Source: Pseudomonadota bacterium
GTDB lineage: Bacteria > Pseudomonadota > Gammaproteobacteria > Burkholderiales > REEB80
Assembly: GCA_028873515.1 (NCBI GenBank)
Contig: JAGWIG010000025.1
Coordinates: 1 to 37,101, forward strand
Reading direction: 5' to 3'
Length of the DNA stretch: 37,101 bases
Positions 2,679 to 37,101 of this stretch are shown one piece after another. Positions within the stretch are counted from its first letter, which is position 1. Every line of letters starts with the position of its first letter. A program made the position numbers and the translations under genes. Below the pieces are notes generated by a model, which was given only the letters and a program-made list of their open reading frames with translations, was not told the origin of the DNA and searched no databases.

Positions 2679-4348
2679 TGGCAACACTTGATCAACTCAA
2701 TGCAGCCCTAATCAAGGCTGATGCAGCCGGGAATACGGATGATGCAAGAGCTTTCGCAAGTGAAATCAGGAAGATGCGCGAGGCTTCGCCCGTAACTCAA
2801 GAGCAACCCGCACCCCGTCAAGCCAGAACACCCATCTTGGGCAGTCTGCTTTCTGGTGGTCTGCGTGGTGCAGGTGAGATCGGTGCAACGATCTTGCGGG
2901 CGCTGCCAAATGCTTTAGGCGGCGATACCGCAGAACAAAGCACGCAACGCCGTGCCGATATCAATGCTGCCGTGGACAGTCTTAATGAAGGGTTAGGAGT
3001 TAGTCAACCCTTGGAGACAGTAGGCAAGCTAGGCACTGAAATCGCAGGAACAGCAGGCGCAGGCGGGGCAATTGCCAAAGGCATGACCGCTATCCCCCAA
3101 GTTGCTAAAGCAGCTCCTAACTTGATTAACGCGATTCAAAGCGCAGGCATGACCGCAGGCAAAGCAGGGCCGGGGCTTATGGGTGGCCTTGAAAATCTGG
3201 CAACTCGTGCGGCTGGTGGCGCTATTACAGGCGGCGCATCGGCGGGAATGATTAACCCTAATGAAGCAGGTATGGGTGCAGCTTTGGGTGGTGGTGCAAC
3301 TTTAGCCATGAAGGGGCTAGGCGCCGTAGGTGGAGCAGTTGGGGACAAATTAGGCAATGCTCTGCGTTTAGGCGTGAGTGATGATGTGGCTAACTTGGCT
3401 AAACGTGCCAAGGAACTAGGGATTGATATCCCCGCTGACCGTCTGACAAATAGCCGTCCTTTGAATGCGATTGCTTCCAGCCTGAATTACGTGCCTTTCA
3501 GTGGCCGTGCAGCGACTGAAGAGAAAATGGCATCCCAACTGAATCAGGCTTTGTCTAAAACCTTCGGGCAGGATTCCAGCAATGTGACAATGGCGTTGCG
3601 AAAAGCAGACACCAAGCTGGGCGGTGAGTTTGACAACACATTGAAAAATACAGGGGTTATTTTTGACAAAGAACTCATGGATGACGTGGCTCGGATTGAA
3701 ACCAAAGCCGATAAGGAGCTAGGTTCGGATGCATTCAAGCCCATCAAAAGCAAGATCGATGACTTGTTTGAAAAAGGACAATCGGGCGCGATTGACGGAC
3801 AAGCAGCCTATAACATCAAGCGCGAACTTGACCGCATAGGCAAAGGCAATACACCTGAAGCTTTCCATGCGCTCGAATTGAAAAGCGCCCTCATGGAGGC
3901 ATTGAACCGTTCTCTAGGCCCTGAAAAAGCGGCTGCTTTTGCAAAAACCCGTCAACAGTATGGAAATATGCTGGCGCTTGAGAAACTCGCTAAAAACGGG
4001 GCAGAAGGCGAAGTCAGCGCTGCACGTTTAGCAAATATGAAAAACATCAATAATCAGCCTTTGCAGGAATTGGCTGACATTGCAGCTCAGTTTGTCAAAC
4101 CCAGAGAAGGTCAACACGGTGCAGCCCAAATAGCAGCCGCTGGCGCTTTGACGTTTGGATTGGCTGGCGCTCCGGGGGTCGCCGCAGGGGTTACAACAGG
4201 CCGCATGGCGAATGCTTTGTTGAATAGCAATGCGCTCAAACAGCATATGTTGAATGAGTCAAAGCCCGGAAAACTGGCCGAACTTTTGAAAAATCAAAAT
4301 GCGCAACGTTTGCTGCTTCAATCAGCGCCTGTTATTTCCGCCCAGTAA
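2678..4348 (+). CDS. Large Gly/Ala-rich internal virion (DNA transfer-type) protein (556 aa)
   Basis: The ATG shares its A with the preceding TAA stop. After a short helical N-terminus, residues about 50-230 contain several Gly/Ala-rich stretches (for example LLSGGLRGAGEIGATIL and GMGAALGGGATLAMKG) like those in podovirus ejection proteins that insert in or cross membranes. The C-terminal half is helical and charged, with another Gly/Ala segment near residue 490 (AAGALTFGLAGAPG). It is third in a run of three long virion genes between the tail and fibre genes. Its last 17 bases overlap a small gene on the other strand. Confidence 0.55.
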   Translation: MATLDQLNAALIKADAAGNTDDARAFASEIRKMREASPVTQEQPAPRQARTPILGSLLSGGLRGAGEIGATILRALPNALGGDTAEQSTQRRADINAAVDSLNEGLGVSQPLETVGKLGTEIAGTAGAGGAIAKGMTAIPQVAKAAPNLINAIQSAGMTAGKAGPGLMGGLENLATRAAGGAITGGASAGMINPNEAGMGAALGGGATLAMKGLGAVGGAVGDKLGNALRLGVSDDVANLAKRAKELGIDIPADRLTNSRPLNAIASSLNYVPFSGRAATEEKMASQLNQALSKTFGQDSSNVTMALRKADTKLGGEFDNTLKNTGVIFDKELMDDVARIETKADKELGSDAFKPIKSKIDDLFEKGQSGAIDGQAAYNIKRELDRIGKGNTPEAFHALELKSALMEALNRSLGPEKAAAFAKTRQQYGNMLALEKLAKNGAEGEVSAARLANMKNINNQPLQELADIAAQFVKPREGQHGAAQIAAAGALTFGLAGAPGVAAGVTTGRMANALLNSNALKQHMLNESKPGKLAELLKNQNAQRLLLQSAPVISAQ

Positions 4349-14770: not shown

Positions 14771-16966
14771 ATGAAATATGAAGATTTTGTTCAATCCAAA
14801 CGAAGAGCCGAGGTCGCAACTGGGCACAGTCCTGGCGATCTAAATGAGTATTTGTTTGACTTCCAACATGCTATCGTGTCATGGGCTGTACGTCGTGGTC
14901 GTGCTGCAATTTTTGCAGATACCGGACTTGGAAAGACGCTCATGCAGCTTTCATGGGCCGATGAGGTTGCGAATCACACAGGTGGCATCGTCGTTGTTCT
15001 TGCTCCGTTGGCTGTATCTGAGCAGACCATTGAGCAGGGAGCGACGTTTGGCATTGAAGTGCGCCGTATTCCTGCAGGAGAGTCACCCACTGAACCTGGC
15101 ATCTGGATTACAAACTATGAACGAATCAATGCGATTGACTTCGCTGCACTGTCTGGTATTGTTTTGGATGAATCCAGCATCTTAAAAAGCCATGATGGGA
15201 AAACAAGAACAGCCATCATTGAGTCTTGCCAGACTATTTCATACCGTCTAAGTTGCACAGCAACCCCATCACCGAATGACTTTGAAGAACTTGGTAATCA
15301 GTGTGAGTTTTTGGGGGTTATGACACGCACTGAAATGCTGGCGACTTACTTCATCAACGATGCGGGTGATACAGGAACATGGATTTTGAAAGGATGGGGT
15401 CAATCTCGATTCTGGGAATGGATGGGAACCTGGGCCGTTGTACTTAGATCGCCTGCTGATATTGGCTTTGACGGATCACGTTACGACCTTCCAAAACTGC
15501 ACTACCATGAACATGTTGTAGTCACTGAAGCATTGGGCGATGAGTTGTTTTCGCGGCCTGCGCAAAGCATGGCAGAGCGACGTAAAGCCCAGCGCGATAG
15601 CATCGAAGCACGATGTAAAGCATTAGCCGATATTGTGAATGGTGAACCTAATGAGCCGTGGCTTATCTGGTGTCATTTGAACGATGAGGCTGAGTTGCTT
15701 CGCCAGTTGATTCCAGGATCGGTAAACGTCCAAGGCTCGGACAGTCCAGAAAGCAAGACCAATAATCTGCTAGGTTTTGCGCATGGCGATGTTCGGGTTC
15801 TGATATCAAAACCAAAGATCGCAGGTTATGGGATGAATTGGCAGCATGCCGCACGCATGGCATTTGTTGGACTGGACGACTCATTCGAGAAGTTTTACCA
15901 AGCCGTCCGACGCTGCTACCGATTCGGCCAGAAACGGGAAGTGCAAGTGCATATCTTCACTGCCGAGAACGAAGGCCAGATTTTGGAAAATATCAAGCGC
16001 AAAGAATCAAACCATCACAACATGAGCGCAAACATGATTGAACACATGAAAAACATTATGAATAAAGAACTAGCCGGACAAGAGAACATCGTAGACGAAT
16101 ACCGCGAGGACACCTACCAACAAGATGGATTTACAGTCCATCTCGGTGACTGCGTAAAGTGGACGCGCCGAATGGAAGATAACAGCGTCGATTACTCTGT
16201 TTTTTCTCCTCCGTTTGCGGATTTGTTCGTTTACTCCAACAGTGACCACGACATGGGCAATTGCCGTAATGATGAGGAATTTGTCCAACAGCTCAAGTTC
16301 CTGATTGCAGAACTTTTCCGTGTCATAAAGCCAGGACGCAATGTTTCATTCCATTGTATGAATCTGCCAACAACCAAGATGCGCCAAGGCTTCATTGGCC
16401 TGCGGGACTTCAGAGGTGATCTGATCCGCGCTTTCCAAGATGCTGGATTTATCTATCATTCCGAGGTTTGCATCTGGAAAGACCCAGTAGTCGCAATGCA
16501 ACGCACCAAGGCACTAGGCCTGCTGCACAAGACTATCCGCGAAAACAGCACAATGAGCCGCATGGGACTACCAGACTACGTTGTGACCATGAGAAAGCCC
16601 GGGGAGATTGAAGAACGTGTGACGCATGGCGATGATCTGCCAGTCATGATGTGGCAGAAATACGCAAGCCCAATCTGGGATGACATCAATCAGAGTCGGA
16701 CATTGAATAAGCTACCTGCGCGTGACGATAATGACCTAAAGCATATGTGTCCATTACAGCTTGACGTAATAGAGCGATGCATTCATTTGTGGACAAATAA
16801 AGGCGACTTAGTATTTTCACCTTTTACTGGTATTGGTTCTGAAGGTTATTGTTCTGTGAAAATGGGACGGCGTTTTATCGGGACTGAATTGAAGCCTCAG
16901 TATTTTGAATTGGCATGTTTGAATATCGAAGATGCCAAAAAAGAACAAAACGATCTATTTGCCTAA
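14771..16966 (+). CDS. SNF2-type helicase fused to DNA methyltransferase (731 aa)
   Basis: Residues 1 to about 430 form a superfamily 2 SNF2-like ATPase: Walker A ADTGLGKTL (about 49-57), motif II LDESS (about 132-136), motif III TATPSPND (about 163-170) and motif VI QAVRRCYRFGQ (about 377-387). Residues about 450-731 form an amino-methyltransferase with DGFTVHLGDC, catalytic motif SPPF (about 479-482) and, near the end, the SAM-binding motif SPFTGIGSEG followed by GTELKPQYF. Catalytic motif before SAM motif is the beta-class order (N6-A or N4-C). No nuclease domain is seen, so this looks like modification without restriction. Likely role: protecting or remodelling phage DNA; recognition site unknown. 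Confidence 0.85.
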   Translation: MKYEDFVQSKRRAEVATGHSPGDLNEYLFDFQHAIVSWAVRRGRAAIFADTGLGKTLMQLSWADEVANHTGGIVVVLAPLAVSEQTIEQGATFGIEVRRIPAGESPTEPGIWITNYERINAIDFAALSGIVLDESSILKSHDGKTRTAIIESCQTISYRLSCTATPSPNDFEELGNQCEFLGVMTRTEMLATYFINDAGDTGTWILKGWGQSRFWEWMGTWAVVLRSPADIGFDGSRYDLPKLHYHEHVVVTEALGDELFSRPAQSMAERRKAQRDSIEARCKALADIVNGEPNEPWLIWCHLNDEAELLRQLIPGSVNVQGSDSPESKTNNLLGFAHGDVRVLISKPKIAGYGMNWQHAARMAFVGLDDSFEKFYQAVRRCYRFGQKREVQVHIFTAENEGQILENIKRKESNHHNMSANMIEHMKNIMNKELAGQENIVDEYREDTYQQDGFTVHLGDCVKWTRRMEDNSVDYSVFSPPFADLFVYSNSDHDMGNCRNDEEFVQQLKFLIAELFRVIKPGRNVSFHCMNLPTTKMRQGFIGLRDFRGDLIRAFQDAGFIYHSEVCIWKDPVVAMQRTKALGLLHKTIRENSTMSRMGLPDYVVTMRKPGEIEERVTHGDDLPVMMWQKYASPIWDDINQSRTLNKLPARDDNDLKHMCPLQLDVIERCIHLWTNKGDLVFSPFTGIGSEGYCSVKMGRRFIGTELKPQYFELACLNIEDAKKEQNDLFA

Positions 16967-20687: not shown

Positions 20688-20829
20688 GACACGACTCCAC
20701 AAATCAAATGGGCAATGGCGGTGCTTTTCCATGAATGACATTCTCAAGATTGAAGGCTACGGACAAACACCGGAAAGCGCATACATGGACTGGCACGCTC
20801 ACTGGATATCCTTCGGGCGGCCTGAATGA
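20671..20829 (+). CDS. Small conserved-type phage protein (52 aa)
   Basis: Starts inside the end of the coiled-coil gene in another frame and ends with ATGA overlap to ninB. The core SNGQWRCFSM then GYGQTPESAYMDWHAHW resembles small phage proteins with a 'G.W.C....GyG.TP..Ay..W' pattern that lie upstream of recombination genes. A shorter form from the ATG at 20731 (32 aa) is possible, but the longer form keeps the W.C segment. Confidence 0.55.
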   Translation: MRSLTKTRLHKSNGQWRCFSMNDILKIEGYGQTPESAYMDWHAHWISFGRPE

Positions 20830-21245
20830 AGTTCAAAGCCAGCCTGTACAATTCCCAGCAAGGCTACAAACAAGTCCTTGAAGGCTGGATGTGGGCTAAA
20901 TCCATGCTCATGGCGGGACATAAGCTGAAAATGACCATAGAGCAGGAAACCAGATCAATTGAGCAGAATGCGGTCATGTGGACCAGATTGTCCGACATTT
21001 CAAGACAGGTGAACTGGTATGGTAAAAAGTTAACGGATGAGGACTGGAAGCACGTATTTAGCTCAAGCATGAGAAAGCTAGATGTCGTGCCTAATCTTGA
21101 TGGAACGGGCTTTGTAGCCCTCGGCCAGTCCACAAGCAAGATGACAAGAAGCGAATTTCAGGAGATGAACGACCTGATTCTCGCCTTTGGTAGTCAAAAA
21201 AATGTCCAATGGAGTGTTGCATCTCTTTGCGGTGAGCCTGAATGA
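20826..21245 (+). CDS. ninB: NinB-family recombination protein (139 aa)
   Basis: Matches the lambda NinB (Orf) family, which binds ssDNA and SSB to assist recombination. Seen: SIEQNAVMWTRLSDISRQVN then WYGKKLTDEDWKHVF, and VVPNLDGTGFVALGQSTSKM then MNDLILAFGSQKNVQW. Length equals typical NinB. It is the last gene of the replication/recombination operon; the next 374 bases are structured non-coding DNA beginning with a hairpin at the stop codon. Confidence 0.85.
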   Translation: MKFKASLYNSQQGYKQVLEGWMWAKSMLMAGHKLKMTIEQETRSIEQNAVMWTRLSDISRQVNWYGKKLTDEDWKHVFSSSMRKLDVVPNLDGTGFVALGQSTSKMTRSEFQEMNDLILAFGSQKNVQWSVASLCGEPE

Positions 21246-21600
21246 CGGTAAAATTAAACCGTCAAACGCTCGCACCGTAACGACATAGAGGCCATTGGCT
21301 TCTGCTTTCTCCCTTTAATGGGAACACGGTGCGAGCGTGGAAAGCAGAGACCAGTGGCTTTTCGTTGTCAGGGCGCATATTGACGTAGCTAATGGGCCAT
21401 GTATCGGCTGCACCCATATAGATATGCGCTTACTGACAAGCTGGCGCGAGAACTTGCTAGGGGTATCTCAGGAACAAGGCAAAATGGGTAATTAGGAGCT
21501 TAGGCCATGCTGAATGGTCGCCTTGGAAATAGAACCTAGACCTTCGGGGGATGTAGTCCTAAATCAGGATGGCATAAATAAGGGGTATTACCTTATTGGC
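21244..21600 (+). ncRNA. Candidate structured RNA, possibly pseudoknotted
   Basis: This gene-free stretch can form many helices. A 6-bp hairpin sits at 21244-21263. Arm A (21266-21278) pairs perfectly over 13 bp with A' (21326-21338). Arm B (21292-21310) pairs with B' (21339-21357): 15 Watson-Crick, 3 G-U and 1 mismatch. The order A-B-A'-B' is a pseudoknot. A 15-bp helix (21365-21371/21433-21439 and 21373-21380/21422-21429), smaller helices (21457-21461/21535-21539, 21475-21480/21520-21525, 21503-21508/21514-21519) and a final AATAAGG/CCTTATT hairpin (21577-21597) follow. The G-U pairs fit only a rightward RNA. No known RNA family was recognised. Confidence 0.6.
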
Positions 21601-21619
21601 TTGTCCTATGGAGAATTGA

Positions 21620-21958
21620 ATGAATAGACCCAAACATACTTACATTCGATCTAAAAAGCTCATGGCTCTGTATCGTGAACTACCCTGCCAGAACTGCGGT
21701 AGAGAAGATGGAACCGTAGTAGGTGCTCACTCTAATCAAGCACAGCATGGCAAAGGGAGAGGCATTAAGGCCGATGACAATAGATGCGCCAGCTTATGCG
21801 CTAGATGTCATTCCACGATAGACCAAGGCTATTCACTCAATCGAACCGAGAGAGAGAAAATCTGGGGAGAGTCTCATGTCAAAACGATAAATGAGCTTGT
21901 AAGGCGCAATAGATGGCCGGATGACATTCCATTGCCTGAAATATCTAAACCAAGATAA
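21620..21958 (+). CDS. HNH-like nuclease, DUF1364-type (112 aa)
   Basis: The start has a GGAG site. Residues 18-70 carry a zinc/HNH-like core: LPCQNCGRED (Cys pair 23/26), AHSNQAQHGKGRGIKADDN (His37, His43) and CASLCARCHSTIDQG (Cys60, Cys63, His64). 'AHSNQ.QHGKG..IKADD' is the signature of DUF1364 proteins encoded in lambdoid and related phages, presumed nucleases. HNH proteins beside terminase genes can assist packaging in some phages; whether this one does is inference. It follows the structured RNA region. Confidence 0.7.
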   Translation: MNRPKHTYIRSKKLMALYRELPCQNCGREDGTVVGAHSNQAQHGKGRGIKADDNRCASLCARCHSTIDQGYSLNRTEREKIWGESHVKTINELVRRNRWPDDIPLPEISKPR

Positions 21959-22040: not shown

Positions 22041-22430
22041 ATGGAAAACTCTGGAAGTGCTGACAAAAAGTTTTATGTTTATGAGCTTGTTTCTGATGAT
22101 GGAGAGATCCATTACGTCGGGAAGGGGTCTAAAAATAGACTAAAAGTGCAACAGCGCAAATTCGGATTAAATGGCACAGTAGTTAAATATTTTGCAACGG
22201 AATCTAAGGCTTACGCATTTGAAAAATTGCACATAGCTGCAGTTAGTCCAAAGTTAAATAAATGTGCTGGCGGCAACGGCAACAAATCAACCCGTACAGT
22301 TGTACGGAAAACAGAATTTCAAAAGCTTTATGAGAAAATCGGCTCTAAGGCAATGGCTGCTCGTATATGGCTTAATTTTGCTAATGACATTTCTGTTTTA
22401 GAAAAAATTAGACGGGTGGCATATGGCTAA
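22041..22430 (+). CDS. GIY-YIG nuclease-domain protein (129 aa)
   Basis: A GGAGG site precedes the ATG by 6 bases. Residues 11-35 have the GIY-YIG core in a variant form: FYVYELVSDDGEIHYVGKGS, then KNRL, as in GIY-YIG endonucleases that read 'vYyL.d..g...YVGKG'. A downstream ESKAYAFEKLHIAAVSPKLN supplies the helix with the catalytic Glu ('E..lI......LN'). The rest is basic and probably binds DNA. It sits between the HNH gene and terminase and could be a free-standing homing endonuclease. It overlaps terS by 8 bases. Confidence 0.7.
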   Translation: MENSGSADKKFYVYELVSDDGEIHYVGKGSKNRLKVQQRKFGLNGTVVKYFATESKAYAFEKLHIAAVSPKLNKCAGGNGNKSTRTVVRKTEFQKLYEKIGSKAMAARIWLNFANDISVLEKIRRVAYG

Positions 22431-22743
22431 AGGATTTAAAACCGGCGGCAGAACGCCAGGAACGACCAACAAGACCACGGCAGACGCTAGACGGGCTATA
22501 GCCTCATTTGTTGATGACAACGCTCACAGGCTCACAGAATGGCTCGACCAAGTTGCAGACGGTGATGTAACAAACGACATTAAGCCAAACCCAGCTAAGG
22601 CGTTTGAGCTATTCCAAAGCGTCATTGAGTACCATATCCCCAAGCTGGCAAGACAAGAGCTAACAGGCTTGGACGGCAATGCAATCAAGTTTGAGATCAA
22701 CCAGCCTTGGCTACAACAACAAATCCAAACGCGCAACTCGTAA
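22423..22743 (+). CDS. terS: Terminase small subunit-like protein (106 aa)
   Basis: N-terminal GGRTPGTTNKTTADARRAIA is the 'GRP.G..NK.T...R.ai' pattern of phage DNA-recognition proteins directly upstream of the large terminase. The middle is helical (DDNAHRLTEWLDQVADG) and the C-terminus has QSVIEYHIPKLARQEL. It would bind the packaging site and deliver DNA to TerL. Its end overlaps the TerL start by 37 bases. Confidence 0.7.
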   Translation: MAKGFKTGGRTPGTTNKTTADARRAIASFVDDNAHRLTEWLDQVADGDVTNDIKPNPAKAFELFQSVIEYHIPKLARQELTGLDGNAIKFEINQPWLQQQIQTRNS

Positions 22744-24086
22744 CGGTGTCAAGCATTGGAATAAACAGCTACGCGCCGCGCCAGCCTTTTATTGATTTTC
22801 ACAATAGGCATGAGCGATGGGCGGTGCTGGTATGCCACCGAAGGGCAGGAAAAACTGTCGCTTGTGTGGCTGAATTGGTACTTTCTGCCTTGTTCACGAC
22901 TAAGAAAGATGCGCGGTATGCCTATGTCTGCCCGCAATACAACCAGGCTAAGGACGTGGCATGGATGTACATCAAGCGGTTAACGGCGGATATTCCCGGT
23001 ATTGCCTATAACGAGTCCGAGCTAAGGGCCGACTTTCCCAATGGGGCAAGGATACGGCTTTACGGTGCTGATAACCCTGACCGACTGCGCGGCCTGTATC
23101 TGGACGGTATCATCATGGACGAGTTCGCCGATATGCGCTCTAGCGTATGGGGTGAAGTTGTCCGACCTATGTTGGCAGACCGTAAAGGATGGGCGGTGTT
23201 TATCGGTACGCCCAAGGGTCATAACGAGTTCTACGACGCTTATGAATACGCTGTCACCAGTCCGGCATGGTTTTCTCTCATGCTCAAAGCCAGTACCTCG
23301 GGGTTAATTGAACCGGAAGAGCTGGAAGACGCACGCCGGGGAATGACCGACGACCAATACGCTCAGGAATTTGAATGCTCGTTTGAAGCAGCCATTGCGG
23401 GGGCTTATTACTCCAAAGATATCGTGGCCGAGCAGATTACAAGCGTGGAATATGATCCGCAACTCCCTGTATATACCGCTTGGGATATTGGATACTCAGA
23501 CGATACCGCTATCTGGTTTTATCAAATCACAAGTGGGGAAATCCATGTTATCGACTACTACGCCGCCAACGGTTACGGAGTGGAGCATTATGCCGATATG
23601 CTGGACAGTAAATCTTACAACTACGCCCGAATGGGTAATAAGCCTTTTCTTTGGCTCCCCCACGATGCAAGAGCTAAAACGTTTGCAAGCGGAGGCAAAT
23701 CAAGCCAAGAACAGTTTATGGCCCGGGGATATTCAAGCAGAATCACGCCTGAATTAAGTCTGCAGGACGGTATCCAAGCCCTTCGCATGGCTTTGCCTCG
23801 GATGTGGTTTGATAGAGAAAAGTGCAAAGATGGAATTGAGGCGTTAAAATTATATCGACGCGAATGGGATAGCGATAAGCGTATATTCAGAGATCGACCA
23901 CTCCACGACTGGACTAGTCACGCTGCTGATGCCGCTAGGTATATGGCATTATCATGGCGAGAATTAGCCCCGGAACCTGTCAAAAAGGAACCAAATTGGG
24001 CAATTCAAGGAAATAACGGCAGAATAATGACTGCCACGCTCGATGAATTGTGGGCTTCAAGCCCTAAACGCAACGGAAGGATATAA
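22707..24086 (+). CDS. terL: Terminase large subunit (459 aa)
   Basis: ATPase and nuclease that pumps and cuts DNA at the portal. Walker A CHRRAGKT (about 43-50), Walker B GIIMDEF (about 134-140), motif III IGTPKGHNEF (about 166-175), then the RNase H-like nuclease from about 255 with the first catalytic Asp in AWDIGYSDD and a late SHAADAARYM acidic segment. The first in-frame start is TTG at 22707; a GTG at 22746 is the alternative, and neither has a good ribosome-binding site, so coupling to terS is likely. Length is normal for terminases of this type. Confidence 0.9.
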   Translation: MATTTNPNAQLVTVSSIGINSYAPRQPFIDFHNRHERWAVLVCHRRAGKTVACVAELVLSALFTTKKDARYAYVCPQYNQAKDVAWMYIKRLTADIPGIAYNESELRADFPNGARIRLYGADNPDRLRGLYLDGIIMDEFADMRSSVWGEVVRPMLADRKGWAVFIGTPKGHNEFYDAYEYAVTSPAWFSLMLKASTSGLIEPEELEDARRGMTDDQYAQEFECSFEAAIAGAYYSKDIVAEQITSVEYDPQLPVYTAWDIGYSDDTAIWFYQITSGEIHVIDYYAANGYGVEHYADMLDSKSYNYARMGNKPFLWLPHDARAKTFASGGKSSQEQFMARGYSSRITPELSLQDGIQALRMALPRMWFDREKCKDGIEALKLYRREWDSDKRIFRDRPLHDWTSHAADAARYMALSWRELAPEPVKKEPNWAIQGNNGRIMTATLDELWASSPKRNGRI

Positions 24087-34017: not shown

Positions 34018-34044
34018 GGGGGGGGTTGGTTCCCCCCTTTTTTT
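34018..34044 (+). terminator. Strong intrinsic terminator after the capsid genes
   Basis: Eight G (34018-34025), loop TTGGTT, then six C (34032-34037) and seven T (34038-34044). It is the clearest terminator in the genome and would allow high coat-protein transcription with partial read-through to the tail genes. Confidence 0.85.
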
Positions 34045-35510: not shown

Positions 35511-37014
35511 CGGACGACGCATTGCCAACACCGTCACATTTCCCGCCCCCGTCGGTGGTTGGAACGCCCGTGATTCTCTCGCCGCCATGAAAAAAGAGGA
35601 TGCTGTCATCCTCGACAACCTTGTCCCAAAAACCACTGAAGTCGTATTGCGCTCAGGCTCAGTCGATCACGTCACAGGCATCTCGGGCACGGTAGAAACC
35701 CTCGCTGTCTATGCCAAGGCGAACGGGACTTATTCCATGTTTGCTGCCGCTGGAACGTCGATCTATGACGTGACCAACGCAGGTACGGTAGGCGCTGCCG
35801 TCCAAACCGGGCTAAGTAATGCCCGCTGGCAAACTGTCAATTTCGCCACGGCTGGCGGTAAATTCCTCTACATGGTCAACGGCGCAGACGCTGCCCGGTA
35901 TTGGGACGGCACAACGTGGACAAACGCCGCAATCACAGGTGTGTCTAGCTCTAGCCTGATTAGCGTGAACACCTATCAGCGCCGTCTCTGGTTTGTCGAA
36001 AAAGACTCCATGCGCGTCTGGTATCTGCCAGTGGTGTCTATCGCTGGTGTGGCCCAATCCTTTGATCTATCCAGCCTTTTTGGTCAAGGTGGTTATCTGG
36101 TGGCGATGGCGACGATTACATCTGACTCGGGTACGGGTATGGACGACTTCGCCGTCTTTCTGTCAAGCGAGGGAGAGATTGCCGTTTACCGGGGGATTGA
36201 CCCGGCCAGCGCTGCAACATGGTATCTGGTCGGTGTTTACAGCGTCGGTTCACCCGTAGGCCGACGGTGTTTCACCAGCTACGGTGCTGACTCTCTGATT
36301 ATCAGTAAAGATGGGGTTTTGCCCATGTCCAAGGCCCTTGCAACGGCCCGTACGAATACCTCGATCTCGATCACGGACAAGATACAGCAGGCCATGAGTG
36401 AAGCGACTTCGACCTATGGCGACCAATTCGGATGGGAATTGACGGTTTTCCCCGAGGAGAATCTGGTCATTTTGAATGTCCCTGTCCCGAATGGCTCACA
36501 ACAATTTGTGATGTATGCGCTCAATGGGTCATGGTGTCGGTTTACCGGATGGAACGCTAAAACCTTCACAAGGATGGGAACAAACCTATATGCTGGTCTA
36601 TCTGGTAAGGTGATGAAGGTCTATGCCGGGCAGACGGATAACGGCGCTCAAATCAATGGCGAAGCTCTGGCTTCATTCCAATACCACGGTGGGATGGCAA
36701 GCAAGCGTTATACGATGGCGCGGCCTATCATCAGTTCAACCGCTGGCGCTACGATTCTTCTCGGTTTGAATCTGGACTTCGATCAATCGCCCCCAACGGG
36801 GTCTATCGCAGCCAGTAATGGCACGGCAGGCGTATGGGGTACGGGCGTATGGGGTACGTTTACATGGGGAGGTGATTTTGTGATTAACAAAAACTGGCAA
36901 ACCGTGGGCGGCGTGGGGTATTGCGCGGCCATTCACATGAAAATATCAGCATTAAATTCAAAGGTTAAATGGCAGTCCTGTGACTATATATTTGAAAAGG
37001 GCTATGGTTTGTGA
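35503..37014 (+). CDS. Large tail protein, tail-stabilisation type (503 aa)
   Basis: ATG at 35503 (MANGRRIANTVTFPAPVGGW) overlaps the previous stop; an in-frame ATG at 35482 adds 7 residues. The N-terminal PAPVGGWNARDSLAAMKKED then AVILDNLVPKTTEVVLRSG is a hallmark of podovirus proteins encoded after the adaptor, likely a beta-propeller that caps the tail. Further motifs: AARYWDGTTWTN, YQRRLWFVEKDSMRVWYLPV and a C-terminal VWGTGVWGTFTWGG strand. The gene ends inside the 149-bp terminal repeat. Confidence 0.75.
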   Translation: MANGRRIANTVTFPAPVGGWNARDSLAAMKKEDAVILDNLVPKTTEVVLRSGSVDHVTGISGTVETLAVYAKANGTYSMFAAAGTSIYDVTNAGTVGAAVQTGLSNARWQTVNFATAGGKFLYMVNGADAARYWDGTTWTNAAITGVSSSSLISVNTYQRRLWFVEKDSMRVWYLPVVSIAGVAQSFDLSSLFGQGGYLVAMATITSDSGTGMDDFAVFLSSEGEIAVYRGIDPASAATWYLVGVYSVGSPVGRRCFTSYGADSLIISKDGVLPMSKALATARTNTSISITDKIQQAMSEATSTYGDQFGWELTVFPEENLVILNVPVPNGSQQFVMYALNGSWCRFTGWNAKTFTRMGTNLYAGLSGKVMKVYAGQTDNGAQINGEALASFQYHGGMASKRYTMARPIISSTAGATILLGLNLDFDQSPPTGSIAASNGTAGVWGTGVWGTFTWGGDFVINKNWQTVGGVGYCAAIHMKISALNSKVKWQSCDYIFEKGYGL

Positions 37015-37101
37015 TTGTCCACGGAGATATTGTCGCGCACTGGGTTGCCGATAAAATAGGGCATACCTATTACACAGGCTCAGGACAGGGTATTGGGATA
37101 G
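36953..37101. repeat. Right copy of 149-bp terminal direct repeat
   Basis: Exact copy of bases 1-149. It contains the end of the tail gene that stops at 37014 and a second, truncated copy of the start of the acetyltransferase-like gene from 37011. Confidence 0.95.
37011..37101 (+). CDS. Truncated second copy of the acetyltransferase-like gene start
   Basis: First 30 codons of the 59-460 gene, repeated because the circular map was cut with an overlap. It is not a separate gene; the frame simply runs off the window end. Confidence 0.9.
   Translation, partial: MIVHGDIVAHWVADKIGHTYYTGSGQGIGI

Follow-up and report, generated by a model that had tools for sequence, protein, structure and literature searches.

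A previously undescribed phage RNA with three pseudoknots between the middle and late genes: a possible antitermination leader

The DNA analysed here, referred to as the window, is a stretch of 37,101 nucleotides. It is the whole genome of a phage, either circular or end-redundant, within a bacterial assembly, and its 149-bp identical ends (1-149 and 36953-37101) are the terminal overlap of the contig. The recombination genes (SSB and Erf) are read leftward, and the replication and nin genes (a DnaB-like helicase, RusA, and NinB) are read rightward. In a 731-aa ORF at 14771-16966, a SNF2-like helicase is fused to an N6/N4 DNA methylase domain. The gene of the NinB-like recombination mediator (20826-21245, plus strand) is followed by a 374-nt gap and then, in order, by a small HNH nuclease gene of the nin-region type (21620-21958, plus strand), a GIY-YIG-looking ORF, a probable small terminase gene (22423-22743, plus strand; assigned by position, with no family match), and the large terminase gene (22707-24086, plus strand). 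The two terminase genes form the start of the late block (22423-24086), which continues with portal, major capsid, and tail genes and reaches the endolysin across the circle. A very strong plus-strand intrinsic terminator (GGGGGGGGTTGGTTCCCCCC TTTTTTT) is found at 34018-34037, inside the late operon and after the capsid region. The gap between the NinB stop (21245) and the HNH start (21620) falls right at the boundary between nin genes and late block. The original prediction described it as 374 gene-free bases, and this is borne out: the gap is non-coding because the indels among homologues are not multiples of three, which rules out a protein-coding reading.

The gap holds a structured RNA (21261-21609; 275 bits with the 355-position model R1) which almost certainly belongs to a previously undescribed family. 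All RNA elements given below lie on the plus strand. An 18-base conserved stretch matched 31 IMG/VR contigs, 30 of which are true homologues, and a second pattern gave 30 more contigs that were confirmed with a covariance model built in this analysis. The family therefore consists of 60 IMG/VR contigs and this genome (~61 members), mostly environmental, with one copy of the RNA in each whole RNA-bearing record searched. The closest relative, L007, has the same gene order and a terminase that is 93% identical. Two contigs from one metagenome (L006 and L138) and phage MW202484.1 carry the 5′ pseudoknot domain without a recognizable 3′ domain.

Searches with the Rfam 15 covariance models gave no gathering-level match for this RNA and nothing credible at E<=10, and an Rfam match is also absent for the most divergent family members. 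The models without a match include those of GOLLD, ROOL, HEARO, the group I intron, pRNA, hammerhead, HDV, and other Rfam families. The group I intron has been ruled out by this result together with the position of the RNA between genes and not within one. The RNA had been suggested to be a new phage RNA, different in fold from GOLLD, ROOL, and the phi29 pRNA, and both parts of this suggestion are upheld by the covarying family and the Rfam scan. GOLLD and ROOL are likewise large and conserved phage RNAs that contain pseudoknots and whose function is unproven, but the present RNA is smaller (the length of GOLLD is often above 800 nt (PMC12286853)), has no Rfam match, is not near tRNA islands, and leads a protein operon. 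A link to tRNAs was ruled out, as 15 of 16 loci have none.

The DNA blast of this member against 50,697 phages gave no match, and with its relatives as queries only the 5′ domain in MW202484.1 was found, with none in plasmids. A first scan, over 84,980 genomes of bacteria and archaea, gave no match to the RNA, and the 12 matches of a looser pattern in such genomes are attributed to chance since none has a covariance-model match. No other match turned up in 399 genomes sampled within the order or in 398 sampled within the phylum, so the RNA is a phage element that seldom occurs as a prophage. A literature search, which left aside preprints and most subscription journals, found no description of this RNA.

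The RNA folds into 11 helices over ~350 nt and contains three covarying pseudoknots, A/A′, PK1 (a contact of the P2 loop), and PK2. In the curated structure, 98.0% of cells are paired across 38 distinct sequences; shuffles give 89.3% and slid controls give 35-45%. Changes on both sides are observed in 40 of the 77 pairs, versus 16.5 in shuffles of the same 38 sequences. A model of the nested helices was used to fit the alignment, which favors those helices. The pseudoknots are absent from the model, so the support for all three is not an alignment artefact, and the A/A′ pairing has also been checked without an alignment. The folding energy is better than chance (z -4.2; 0 of 100 shuffles). The minus strand scores the same as the plus strand, and energy alone therefore does not choose between them. 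The strand is set by the promoter with its conserved spacing, the gene orientation, and the covariation, all of which agree with the rightward transcription that had been deduced from the G-U pairs.

In the 5′ domain, arm A (21266-21278) forms a perfect 13-bp pairing with arm A′ (21326-21338), which is located in the loop of helix B. Both this pairing and the interleaved A-B-A′-B′ order had been predicted correctly. Among the homologues, A/A′ is 10-13 bp long and is unbroken in all 20 tested, which represent 18 distinct 5′ regions, although its sequence takes about ten different forms. Helix B was expected to have 19 bp with three G-U pairs and one mismatch. The interleaved arm and the three G-U pairs are retained, but the helix has ~20 bp, with an outer 11 bp and an inner 9 bp separated by a 2x2 internal loop (5′ arm 21288-21309). 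Changes on both sides are found in 14 of its 16 counted pairs. Covariation of A/A′ and of B/B′ in non-coding homologues had been put forward as a check of the structure, and this is what the homologues show. A weaker apical hairpin, UCCC/GGGA (21310-21323; 84% paired), is also located in the loop of B. The 3′ arm of helix B and a terminator-like U-run occupy 21340-21362, with UUUU in this member and 4-7 U in the others. At the loci examined, helix B with its 4-7 U amounts to -35 to -49 kcal/mol. Its loop is long and structured, unlike those of textbook terminators, and a simple terminator scan omits it.

The middle domain (21367-21437) is formed by helix C (21367-21380 with 21422-21437) around a covarying 4-bp hairpin, and helix C is short in most other members. 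The predicted 15-bp helix is present here but is specific to this member, while the others keep a short part of it. The 3′ domain (21435-21605) is closed by P1 (GACAAGC/GCUUGUC, 21435-21441 with 21599-21605), which is 100% paired. Within it, the loop CUAGG (21457-21461) of hairpin P2 (21448-21469) pairs with CCUAG (21535-21539) to form PK1, a second pseudoknot missing from the original prediction. The 3′ strand of PK1 is GCCUG, UCUAG, or GCUG elsewhere and is matched by the P2 loop, as in CUAGG/CCUAG, CAGGC/GCCUG, and CUAGA/UCUAG. Helix P3 (21475-21480 with 21520-21525) encloses hairpin P4 (21503-21508 with 21514-21519), and the pair variants of P3/P4 include AAGGC/GCCUU, AGAGC/GCUCU, and AGGGC/GCCCU. 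Hairpin P5 (21552-21574) is supported by the covariation count. PK2 joins GGUAAU (21487-21492) to AUUACC (21587-21592) and covaries from GGUGAU/AUCACC to GGUAAU/AUUACC. The 7-bp hairpin that had been placed at the 3′ end is not conserved, and its 3′ half belongs to PK2. The 3′ domain also contains highly conserved unpaired stretches.

The RNA is preceded by a sigma-70-type promoter (21226-21254, plus strand) with a weak -35 box TTTGCG (21226-21231), a 17-nt spacer, and a -10 box TAAAAT (21249-21254). The -35 box is weak in this member alone, where a generic promoter scan omits the promoter, and several loci have TTGACA/TATAAT. In nearly all of the 39 loci compared, a -10 box stops 6-7 nt short of the conserved 5′ end, whereas the upstream sequence is variable. 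At L053, L062, L080, and L111, the scorer picked another hexamer, and TACAAT is seen by eye at the same spacing. In one large group, the -35 box overlaps conserved HNH codons and its conservation there is not independent. The distance of the -10 box from the conserved 5′ end indicates that the transcript starts at the first base of the RNA. At the other end, none of 36 loci has an intrinsic terminator within 150 nt after the RNA, and in 33 of the 36 the next start codon is 6-56 nt from the RNA end. In this phage, the GGAG ribosome-binding site of the HNH gene (21610-21613, plus strand) directly follows the last base of the RNA. The promoter spacing, the lack of a 3′ terminator, and the adjoining ribosome-binding site point to a transcribed 5′ leader of the next operon, and a cis-acting leader of one kind or another is probable.

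The genes that follow the RNA differ across the family. HNH-terminase genes follow it in this phage and L007. In the L061 group, the RNA is located after the HNH gene and before a DUF5856-...-terminase series, and in the L062, L080, and L093 groups it directly precedes the small and large terminase genes, whose terminase families differ. In L118, it lies ahead of the major capsid gene and behind a terminator; this terminator, at about 935-976, consists of GACCCGCCATTGTGCGGGTC followed by T8 and is found directly before the RNA promoter. In L068, L088, L092, and L099, the RNA heads a middle operon. In L104 and L118, promoter-like sequences are found just after it. The RNA is a module tied to operon heads, mostly that of the late operon, and not to one gene. 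The variety of downstream genes (HNH, DUF5856, small terminase, capsid, and nin) argues against feedback for one gene. The DUF5856 gene itself (PHROG 'starvation-inducible transcriptional regulator'; L061:2603-3040) is found in many related loci, immediately downstream of the RNA or a little ahead of the terminase genes.

The RNA is absent from contigs whose large terminase (TerL) is 76-86% identical to that of this phage. All 15 judgeable RNA-less TerL relatives with enough upstream sequence have a gene for a ~125-aa protein before the terminases (L120:1219-1593, L129:358-753, L139:1911-2285, L123:2733-3101, and 11 more). The gene is absent from L122 and the distant L140. The protein has no name in Pfam, PHROG, or NCBIfam. 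In a VIA-align comparison of its AlphaFold model (pLDDT 78), Q21 of phage 21 provided the top four solved structures (Z 9.5-7.5). The best match is 6p18_Q (Z 9.5, rmsd 4.6, 101 residues), and sigma region 4 comes next at 7.1 and below; Z values of 8 or below are common for such models, and small helical models can reach more. With Foldseek alone, Q21 was not among the matches listed. The profile of the protein also matches the 'phage antitermination protein Q' gene of MW202481.1 (E 1e-5). The resemblance of the modeled fold to Q21 is supported mainly by the first four places going to Q21 structures and by the independent annotation in MW202481.1. The Q21-like protein family is newly identified here.

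A strong terminator lies between the ~125-aa gene and the large terminase gene in all 10 relatives inspected, in several of them immediately ahead of the start of the small terminase gene. No Q21-like protein was found in the RNA-bearing records searched, most of the viral ones being fragments. PF06530 and PF03589 were not found in them either, which is a weak negative as both models also missed known Q-like proteins. In the terminase lineage of this phage, RNA-bearing members are without the Q-like protein and the terminator, and the judged RNA-less relatives have the Q-like protein. The RNA replaces the Q-like protein and terminator in this lineage, the only one in which the exchange has been seen.

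A second lineage, with the L061-type TerL, shows another arrangement. A strong intrinsic terminator occupies the place of the RNA in 31 of 47 RNA-less relatives, and in 26 of those 31 a promoter-like sequence ends about 21 nt before it. At L191 (~2190-2260), L199 (~2870-2930), L231 (~4200-4260), and similar loci, TTGACG-16-TACAAT and then the terminator are found between the HNH and DUF5856 genes. These RNA-less relatives keep the same gene order, and no Q21-like protein was found in them. This lineage did not confirm mutual exclusion of Q and the RNA as a general rule. In both lineages, the RNA occupies the transcription gate between the middle and late genes.

Based on these observations, we propose that the RNA may be a cis-acting, RNA-only antitermination leader of the late genes that would work by analogy with, but is unrelated to, the put element of phage HK022 (a probability of roughly 0.45). 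The promoter would fire at 21261 and the nascent transcript would fold into a three-pseudoknot 5′ leader of the packaging, capsid, tail, and lysis operon. As A/A′ and B fold, helix B and its U-run could act as a gate, in the form of a pause or partial stop, which the 3′ domain or a pseudoknot would overcome. The RNA would act in cis on the polymerase and allow passage through the B stop and later terminators, such as the one at 34018-34037. The leader would thus take the place of the lambdoid Q protein in controlling polymerase entry into the late genes. The covariation, the promoter spacing, the lack of a 3′ terminator, the varied first genes, the Q/terminator exchange, the terminators at the place of the RNA in the second lineage, the late-operon terminator, and the precedent of HK022 put are in favor of this proposal. 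On the other hand, neither the 3′ domain nor Q is present in L006 and L138, so that the 3′ domain is not always required. The middle-operon position in L068, L088, L092, and L099, the capsid gene in L118, the restriction of the exchange to one lineage, and the long loop of helix B also count against it, and the promoter-like sequences just after the RNA in L104 and L118 would fit an independent RNA. Somewhat more tentatively, the family could form a new class of large triple-pseudoknot RNA antiterminators that replaces Q and its terminator, so that late genes would be switched on by RNA only.

The nascent put RNA of HK022 binds the zinc-binding domain of the polymerase beta′ subunit and causes read-through without phage proteins. 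Like put, the present RNA comes from a phage, lies close to the beginning of an operon transcript, and would need no phage protein, and the usual antiterminator at that place has not been detected in the phage. The put RNA has ~70 nt and two stem-loops and serves the early operons in place of N/nut; put antiterminates by itself and still acts on terminators at a distance of at least 10 kb (PMC9378689). The RNA described here differs in having ~350 nt and three pseudoknots and in being mostly placed at the late operon instead of Q. Its position after the nin genes and before the terminase and late genes, its own promoter, and a terminator-like hairpin near the start (here the long-looped helix B) are shared with the lambdoid Q/pR′/tR′ systems of lambda, 82, and 21. 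Unlike in those systems, no Q is detectable, a large conserved RNA follows, and there is no separate terminator before the next gene.

The main rival to the antitermination leader is a stand-alone, trans-acting structured RNA with its own promoter, serving in host take-over or counter-defence, as a decoy, or as a virion RNA, for which the late-gene position would only give timing. We consider it possible but rather doubtful. The fixed promoter distance, the sharply conserved 5′ and 3′ limits, the single copy per record, and an elaborate fold typical of stand-alone RNAs would all suit such an RNA, as would the varied downstream genes, the RNA-less relatives with the same gene order, and the promoter-like sequences that L104 and L118 have after the RNA. 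However, a stand-alone RNA does not account for a 3′ end that has no terminator in 36 of 36 loci and runs into the next ribosome-binding site, and convergent placement was not noticed among the loci inspected.

That 3′ end, 6-56 nt before a start codon, and transcription from the first base of the RNA are what would be expected of a leader that acts on the translation of the first late gene or genes or on the stability of their mRNA, through 5′-end protection, ribosome recruitment, or a ligand-sensing switch. The conserved unpaired stretches of the 3′ domain resemble those of ligand- or protein-binding RNAs. Such a role is unlikely, though, as the first gene differs between members (HNH, DUF5856, small terminase, capsid, or nin), in many of them the ribosome-binding site lies free at a distance of 20-30 nt, and the exchange with Q and a terminator is left unexplained.

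An even less likely explanation is that the element is only a terminator or attenuator, in which the promoter and helix B with its U-run yield a ~105-nt RNA and some phage or host antiterminator protein opens the gate. Lambda provides the model for such an RNA, as its pR′-tR′ yields the 6S transcript. The energy of helix B with its 4-7 U, the terminators at this site in RNA-less relatives, and the members that have the 5′ domain without a recognizable 3′ domain (L006, L138, and MW202484.1) agree with this explanation. It leaves the 3′ double-pseudoknot domain, the most conserved part, unexplained; moreover, a candidate antiterminator was not found, only UUUU is present here, and the loop is long and structured. 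The original prediction had also offered a DNA-level packaging or cos/pac element, and terminase genes are often within a few kb of the RNA, but a packaging site or a packaging RNA (like the phi29 pRNA, also close to packaging genes but unrelated in sequence and fold by Rfam search) is most improbable, since the present RNA is not tied to one terminase type, the constraint is on RNA pairing, the downstream terminases belong to several unrelated families, the RNA precedes the capsid gene in L118 and lies in the middle region in L088, and close TerL relatives lack it.

To our knowledge, very few systems of RNA-only processive antitermination are known, and HK022 put is the phage case. If the antitermination reading is true, the present RNA would join put as a second RNA antiterminator, unrelated to it, five times its size, and acting on late genes. 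It would imply that a protein switch central to phage development can pass to RNA, and it would supply an RNA part with which terminators could be read through. Even with another mechanism, this is a family without an Rfam entry that occurs in at least 61 genomes or contigs of phages and has three covariation-supported pseudoknots and a fold known in enough detail for experimental work.

Other RNA features have been observed in other phages. An int-alpA RNA (RF02996) is located at L050:3281-3347 (phage MW202520.1). Gene-free stretches of 0.9-1.6 kb occur beside nin/HNH genes in groundwater phages (MW202484.1 35678-37293, MW202481.1 6907-7812, and L051 3109-3985); they have no Rfam match and could hold other structured RNAs.
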